From Rhizobiaceae bacterium (GTDB taxonomy: Bacteria > Pseudomonadota > Alphaproteobacteria > Rhizobiales > Rhizobiaceae), in assembly GCA_014238155.1 (NCBI GenBank), contig JABABQ010000058.1, positions 1 through 43,500 on the forward strand: a stretch of DNA of 43,500 nt, written 5' to 3'. This document shows positions 660 through 2,510 of the stretch, piece after piece; within the stretch, counting starts at the first letter, position 1; each line of letters starts with the position of its first letter. A model generated the notes under the pieces. That model was given only the letters and a program-made list of their open reading frames with translations, was not told the DNA's origin and made no database searches. Position numbers and translations under genes: made by a program.

Positions 660-2510
660 ATGAGCAGCTATTATAATGTAAAACAATCTACCAATGATTA
701 TCGTGATATTATTTTTGACAAACTTGTATCAAGTGAATTGTCATTATTACCGCAATGTAATTATATTTCAGATTTATTACCCATTCGTGACCAAGGTTTA
801 CAAGGAACATGTTTTGCACAATCTGCAGCATGTATGAAAGAATGGCAAGAAAAAAGAGACATAGGACTAAATGAATATTTATCCCCCCAATTTTTTTACA
901 ATCAAAGAAACTATTGGAATAATAATATTGCCGATGGGAATGATGCAAATGAAGATTATGGAATGACGGGAAGAGATGTTATGCGTATTTTATTACATAT
1001 TGGTATTTGTAAAGAAAGTGAATATCCATATGGTAAACAAGAACTTGCAAAAGATATTGCACCCGAAATATATGAATCCGCTGCAAAAAATCGTATTAAA
1101 CAATATGGGAGAATTTATTCACTAAGTGCATTGAAAAAAGCGCTAGTAGTTAACGGCCCATGCTTAATAGCAGTACCAGTTTATAATCATGGTATGGAGA
1201 TGTGGAAAATAAATAGCGAAAACGAAAAGATGCTAGGTGGTCATGCAATGACTGTAGTAGGTTATGATGATCATGAACAACAATTAATCATTAGAAATAG
1301 TTGGGGTAAATATTGGGGTGTAAATGGCTATTGCTATTTTAAATATGAAGATTGGGGACATCAATGGGAATGTTGGACAACCATAGATATTCCAACTTTT
1401 CAAATAGATTCAGATTCTGACTCCGAAAATGTAGCGCCTACGCCTGAAAGTGAAGAAGGATCAGTGCCAGAGCTAGAGCCATCTGAGCCAGAACCAGAGC
1501 CAGAGCCAGAACCAGAGCCAGAGCCAGAACCAGAGCCAGAGCCAGAGCCAGAGCCAGAGCCAGAGCCAGAACCAGAGCCAGAGCCAGAAAAGAAAAGCTG
1601 GTTTTCCCGTCTCAAAGATGGCCTGTCGCGCTCTTCCAGTCAGCTGACTGAAAACATCACTGCCGTTTTTACCAAACGGAAGTTGGACGAAGACACTTTG
1701 CAGGAATTGGAAGACATTCTGATTCAGGCCGACTTGGGCGTGGAAACAGCGCTCAACATTACCGACAAACTCGCTTCAACCCGGATGGGCAAGGACATTA
1801 CCGACGAGGAAGTCCGCGAATTCATGGCAGGAGAGGTTGAAAAGGTTCTAGAACCGGTTGCCGCAGAACTTGAGCTGGACCTGGATCATACGCCGCACGT
1901 GATTTTGGTGGTTGGGGTAAACGGATCTGGCAAGACAACGACCATTGGCAAGCTCAGTCAGAAACTGGTGGATGGCGGTTTTTCTACGCAACTGGTCGCC
2001 GGAGACACATTCAGGGCAGCAGCGATTGAGCAATTGAAGATTTGGGGAGACCGGACCGGATCGCCGGTTGTCTCACGCCCCTTGGGTTCCGACGCCGCTG
2101 GTCTGGCTTTTGATGCCTATGCGGAGGCAAAACAGCAAAATCATGATGTGATTTTGATGGATACTGCCGGACGCCTGCAAAACAAGACCGAATTGATGGA
2201 TGAACTGGAAAAAATCATCCGCGTGCTGCGCAAACAAGATCCAACCGCTCCTCACACCGTATTGTTGACGCTCGACGCGACGACCGGTCAAAACGCCCTG
2301 AATCAGGTTGAAATTTTCAAAGATGTTGCCGGCGTAAACGGCCTGGTGATGACCAAGCTGGACGGTACCGCTCGGGGTGGCATCATGGTGTCGATTGCCG
2401 CCAAATTCAAATTGCCCGTCTATTTCATTGGCGTTGGTGAGCAAGTCGAAGACCTTGAGCCCTTTGACGCCAGAGATTTTGCCCGGTCGATTGCTGGTCT
2501 GGAAAACTGA
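660..2510 (+). CDS. ftsY: papain-like cysteine protease joined in frame to FtsY (signal recognition particle receptor); probable chimera
   Basis: The 616-residue frame has three parts. Residues 1-250 are a C1A papain-like domain with Gln45, Cys51 (QGTC), His195 ([11 protein letters not shown]) and Asn213 (RNSWGKYWG) at the expected catalytic positions, without a signal peptide or obvious pro-domain. Residues 276-310 are a Glu-Pro repeat. Residues 311-616 are a complete FtsY NG domain: helical N domain starting [13 protein letters not shown]-loop [10 protein letters not shown] (about 419), DTAGR (about 501) and [10 protein letters not shown] (about 565). FtsY is the membrane-associated GTPase that receives SRP-bound ribosomes. 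The protease part is AT-rich; the FtsY part has the composition of the host chromosome. The native FtsY N-terminal acidic region and start are missing. Since alphaproteobacterial FtsY proteins often carry Glu/Pro-rich acidic N-termini, a misassembly at the repeat is the simplest explanation. Confidence 0.85.
1485..1589 (+). repeat. hexanucleotide GA(G/A)CCA repeat encoding (Glu-Pro)17
   Basis: About 17.5 copies of a 6-base unit, gagcca or gaacca, encode 17 Glu-Pro pairs plus a final Glu. The repeat separates the AT-rich protease coding region from the FtsY coding region without breaking the frame. Such a low-complexity tract is longer than many assembly k-mers and is a likely point for two unrelated contigs sharing the repeat to be joined. 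In a real protein it would be a rigid acidic spacer. Confidence 0.9.

Follow-up and report, generated by a model that had tools for sequence, protein, structure and literature searches.

Does the reading frame at the start of this contig encode a genuine fusion of a papain-type protease to FtsY, or does it join two unrelated DNAs? The window analysed here is the whole of contig C26, 43,500 bases long, from a 4.8-Mb genome in 77 contigs; the odd protease part therefore forms a contig end. As assembled, the frame at 660-2510 is 616 amino acids long, has no internal stop and holds, in order, a papain-type protease, 17 Glu-Pro units (the longest such run in the frame) and a complete FtsY NG domain. 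Pfam profiles placed Peptidase_C1 (PF00112) at residues 39-229 (E = 3.5e-15; 57.1 bits against a cut-off of 20.7), SRP54_N (PF02881) at residues 329-384 (E = 8.7e-12; 45.5 bits against 22.4) and the SRP54 GTPase (PF00448) at residues 412-611 (E = 3.8e-72; 242.5 bits against 22.7). The part at 1590-2510 has both the SRP54_N helical bundle and the SRP54 GTPase that define an FtsY domain, and the upstream part combines a Peptidase_C1 family match with the Cys-His-Asn set of a papain-type protease. Cys51, His195 and Asn213, which we take from family knowledge to be the catalytic residues, are conserved in a pairwise alignment with one viral relative. The preliminary description of this locus, which reported an intact triad, 17 Glu-Pro units and a full NG domain in one uninterrupted frame, and a sharp shift from AT-rich to balanced composition at the repeat, thus matches the letters in every respect. 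The reading of 660-2510 as a single gene nevertheless fails, and the frame is almost certainly no real gene. Table 1 collects the features concerned.

Table 1. Features at the start of contig C26, with positions in the window.
Feature	Positions	Strand	Basis or counterpart
ORF running off the contig edge, 3' part only; small hydrophobic protein in the AT-rich foreign flank	1..261	+	
100-aa hydrophobic protein in the foreign flank; sub-threshold PQ-loop match	309..611	+	
Foreign papain-like (Peptidase_C1) cysteine protease, Cys-His-Asn intact, with acidic Pro/Glu-rich tail	660..1461	+	Pfam, PHROG, viral relatives
Glu-Pro repeat of GAGCCA/GAACCA units; join of foreign DNA and ftsY placed inside	1462..1588	+	
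Genuine FtsY NG domain, the 3' part of ftsY	1590..2510	+	5' part on contig C56, minus strand, bases 862 to 1
M24/creatinase-type peptidase gene, genuine chromosome	2750..3982	+	Pfam; collinearity with G003

The composition of the flank sets it apart. GC content is 0.22-0.26 in 500-base windows within 1-1000 versus about 0.53 after 1500, and third-codon-position GC is 0.195 in the protease versus 0.585 in the FtsY part; for two genes farther into the contig the values are 0.537 and 0.543. Among 4,306 sampled 500-base windows, the three lowest in GC all fall within 1-1000. Sampling covered 65 readable contigs (C26 in full, 7 kb of C56 and, for long contigs, their first 20 kb), while 12 of the 77 contigs read as N, and other binned donor contigs could have escaped notice. 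The flank from 1 to about 1460 is compositionally alien to the rest of the genome, and a search of the same genome for a second copy (DNA 1-1430) returned only the flank itself, with the same 12 of 77 contigs read as N. Its two small upstream ORFs gave no PHROG match at E = 0.001 or better. The first, 1..261, had no Pfam family over cut-off, no PHROG at E up to 1 and no viral relative; the second, 309..611, showed a PQ-loop match (PF04193; E = 6.3e-4, 19.9 bits) below the cut-off of 22, and no relatives were found in viral contigs. On the far side of the repeat, the stretch 2543-3699 is collinear with relative G003 in DNA alignment. Two nearby genes of about 820 aa further along the window (18108-20573 and 21466-23925) are both of the DAO plus glycine-cleavage-T type; they are ordinary, and their products presumably resemble dimethylglycine or sarcosine dehydrogenases.

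The front half of ftsY, missing from C26, is found at the edge of another contig. The minus strand of C56 encodes MAEKKEGFFKRLFRFGKK, then an Ala/Glu/Lys-rich stretch, QQAVVPEPEP and a Glu-Pro repeat, free of stops to the contig edge. The edge repeat consists of 19 pure GAGCCA units in frame with the FtsY N-terminus. The start of C56 is the N-terminal half that FtsY ordinarily has in this genus: the basic/aromatic N-terminus and charged N-terminal region of the genus relatives are absent from 660-1589 and present on C56 up to the repeat. A genome search found one FtsY NG domain, at C26:1590-2507, and the only other match to FtsY in the genome was an SRP54-type paralogue at C56:5429-6247 (34% identity), which we take to be Ffh.

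Relatives show how the two halves belong together. In G006, a genome of two contigs, the N-terminus, repeat and NG domain form one gapless 656-aa frame with no protease and no N, inside a 4.45-Mb contig. In G003, one side of scaffold C111 follows C26 collinearly, starting at the repeat and running rightwards, at about 87% DNA identity, and its other side follows C56 at 83-89%; Ns lie in its Glu-Pro repeat, and the sequence beyond the gap aligns with the N-terminal region on C56. Gene order in both relatives thus joins C56 to C26. At the protein level, the FtsY of G003 is 99% identical to the C26 NG domain over 305 residues, and the FtsY of same-genus relatives mostly has a long Ala/Glu/Lys- or Glu-Pro-rich N-terminal region, as on C56. 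Likeness to the bacterial SRP receptor (SRP54_N plus SRP54 GTPase) is that of a complete NG domain from 1590; the difference exists only in the contig as assembled, where foreign DNA stands in place of the N-terminal half. A single contiguous gene for both domains is contradicted by the 5' half of ftsY on C56 and by the gapless, ordinary gene of G006.

Across the genus, an ordinary FtsY N-terminus lies in the same frame in 11 of the 13 relatives with an FtsY match, a count that includes G010, with 12 unknown residues in its repeat; a 14th, G005 (77% complete), gave no FtsY match and stands outside the 13. The other two are cut inside the repeat, G003 by Ns and G001 by a contig edge. In G015, of another genus, a contig starts inside such a repeat, so that the assemblies of four relatives (G001, G003, G010 and G015) break or gap there. 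The Glu-Pro repeat of ftsY is thus a site of assembly failure. By a crude test, none of the 27 relatives read has a papain signature upstream of the P-loop; three of them, G001, G003 and G015, are cut short in the repeat. The P-loop motif used for orienting loci missed 2 of 29 relatives (L015 and L017), and L017 shows an ordinary N-terminus. One same-genus ftsY, at G014:C1:577678-578592 (L019), has an AT-rich upstream region and no Glu-Pro repeat. It lies in a 0.9-Mb single-contig genome, in the same genus as genomes of 2.4-4.8 Mb, and G014 looks like a reduced genome.

These comparisons bear directly on the proposal that the protease is a fixed part of FtsY, stationed at the SRP receptor to process nascent chains, with the N-terminus on C56 belonging to a separate gene. 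The one uninterrupted frame speaks for such a protein. However, the six-base repeat encodes Glu-Pro on both sides, so a reading frame preserved across the join is expected and is not evidence for fusion. The C56 half has no stop up to where the contig breaks off, and its last part is the GAGCCA repeat as well; gene order in G003 and G006 connects it to C26, and third-codon GC differs between the two sides (0.195 versus 0.585). Among the 101 genomes of the order (this one included), 12 relatives have a papain match (best E = 8.8e-16, 31% identity), and in all four of these with a known ftsY place (G004, G009, G011 and G018) it lies on a contig other than that of ftsY. A literature search on FtsY together with papain returned no paper on such a fusion, judged by title. 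We regard a fixed, functional fusion as extremely improbable, and the co-translational processing role suggested for it in the preliminary description finds no support, since G006 has an ordinary ftsY N-terminus at this locus. Within the same survey, contig C1 of G074, a same-family genome of 1.5 Mb, carries papain-like matches at 418911-419639 (in L041), 692042-692344 and 966325-967047 (31-33% identity); three seem many for a genome so small.

The protease itself resembles viral enzymes. It matches a solved cysteine protease structure (3ois; E = 7.9e-22) and PHROG 16701, 'peptidase' (E = 9.9e-21); an AlphaFold2 model built from two sequences only had a mean pLDDT of 42.2, too low for use. The best relatives found lie at 17 viral loci, spread over 16 contigs, and are 41-50% identical over nearly the whole domain, with the Cys, His and Asn residues as in the C26 protease in the one aligned. 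A further 21 phage records, named or uncultured, match the protease, and in 20 of them the match covers 80% or more of the query. They include 15 Prevotella phage records and Thermoanaerobacterium phage THSA-485A, whose protein is annotated as peptidase C1A papain. With 25-29% identity in the best 20 of the 21 records, these are not close kin. As for cellular relatives, 29 pattern-matched stretches in genome contigs were examined and none encodes one. Neighbouring genes, scanned in 5 of the 17 viral loci, include two terminase-type proteins (L002), a tail tube protein beside another protein with no PHROG match (L127), a glycosyl hydrolase 108 gene upstream of the protease (L135) and a glucosaminidase (L130); the one neighbour scanned in L139 had no Pfam match. 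The low GC by itself had suggested a giant-virus origin of the flank; this idea was set aside once phage packaging or tail genes were seen on contigs bearing protease relatives. The protease points to a phage as donor of the flank, an assignment that takes its basis from this one gene, the two upstream ORFs having no viral relative.

Tails of these viral proteases offer a counterpart to the repeat. Each of the 17 viral frames spans 258-300 aa, which leaves no room for an FtsY domain in addition to the protease, and nine of them have at least three prolines in the tail after the protease domain (eight by script and L134 read directly; the tail motif script missed two loci, L133 and L134, both read directly). 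By the script threshold, six have a strongly hydrophobic C-terminal stretch (L131, L136, L138, L139, L140 and L141). In L131, L136, L138, L139 and L140, a Pro-rich linker is followed by such a strongly hydrophobic, membrane-like C-terminus, and L135 is a Pro-rich relative with no hydrophobic segment. The Pro-rich proteases with a hydrophobic C-terminus are possibly membrane-anchored and may perhaps have a part in lysis. By comparison, the tail of the C26 copy continues into a long Glu-Pro repeat; its true C-terminus and the 3' end of its gene were probably lost at the join and would lie off contig C26. In the donor, predicted to be a phage, the protease would finish with a Glu-Pro linker and a short hydrophobic or basic tail.

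Taken with the front half of ftsY ending in the repeat on C56 and the ordinary ftsY of the relatives, whose upstream sequence the preliminary description had proposed as a check, the evidence supports its view that two unrelated DNAs were merged in assembly at a common GAGCCA repeat. With very high confidence, we read the protease-FtsY frame as an assembly or scaffolding chimera in which foreign AT-rich DNA was joined to ftsY at the Glu-Pro repeat. The foreign piece, about 1.46 kb long, would probably stem from an AT-rich phage that was present in the sample. It encodes a papain-like protease, with a Glu/Pro-rich C-terminal tail that belongs to it, and two small hydrophobic proteins. GAGCCA repeats in both DNAs would have led to its attachment at the 5' end, where the ftsY contig is broken. 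Pro-rich linkers are common in these viral proteases, as are Glu-Pro repeats in the FtsY of this genus, and both appear here to have used GAGCCA units; the donor's own protease gene would then have carried a repeat. The longest exact stretch common to the C26 repeat and the C56 edge repeat is 41 bases (1530-1570 of the window), and an exact overlap of 41 bases is enough for a short-k-mer join by assemblers. Four GAACCA units, one of them close to the NG domain, lie among the GAGCCA units of the C26 repeat, whereas the C56 edge is pure GAGCCA; the overlap is thus imperfect, and the join cannot be pinned to one base.

A join could also have arisen in the cell, by insertion or recombination that brought phage DNA into the ftsY Glu-Pro repeat of some cells and tethered the protease to the SRP receptor in part of the population. 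An intact frame and intact protease residues would fit such an event. It would, however, sever the conserved N-terminus from FtsY, an essential protein that is single in this assembly, and on C56 the severed half has been assembled as far as the repeat at the edge. The arrangement is in none of the relatives read, and in four of their assemblies, too, a break or gap falls within such a repeat. We therefore consider a real recombinant highly improbable, and infer that the join was made by an assembler or scaffolder and not in a rare real molecule.

The protease-FtsY fusion is not a real feature, and the FtsY of this organism would be an ordinary one, doing its normal work as the GTPase of the SRP receptor, with an N-terminal region that is acidic and variable. 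The analysis keeps a false protease-FtsY protein from entering annotation as a gene fusion. The viral protease family, with its Pro-rich linkers and probable membrane tails in some members, is a small lead of its own. More broadly, low-complexity linkers such as the Glu-Pro repeats of FtsY in this genus and the Pro-rich tails of these viral proteases can create in-frame chimeras, and lists of novel domain fusions should be checked for a repeat at the junction together with a missing half at the edge of another contig.
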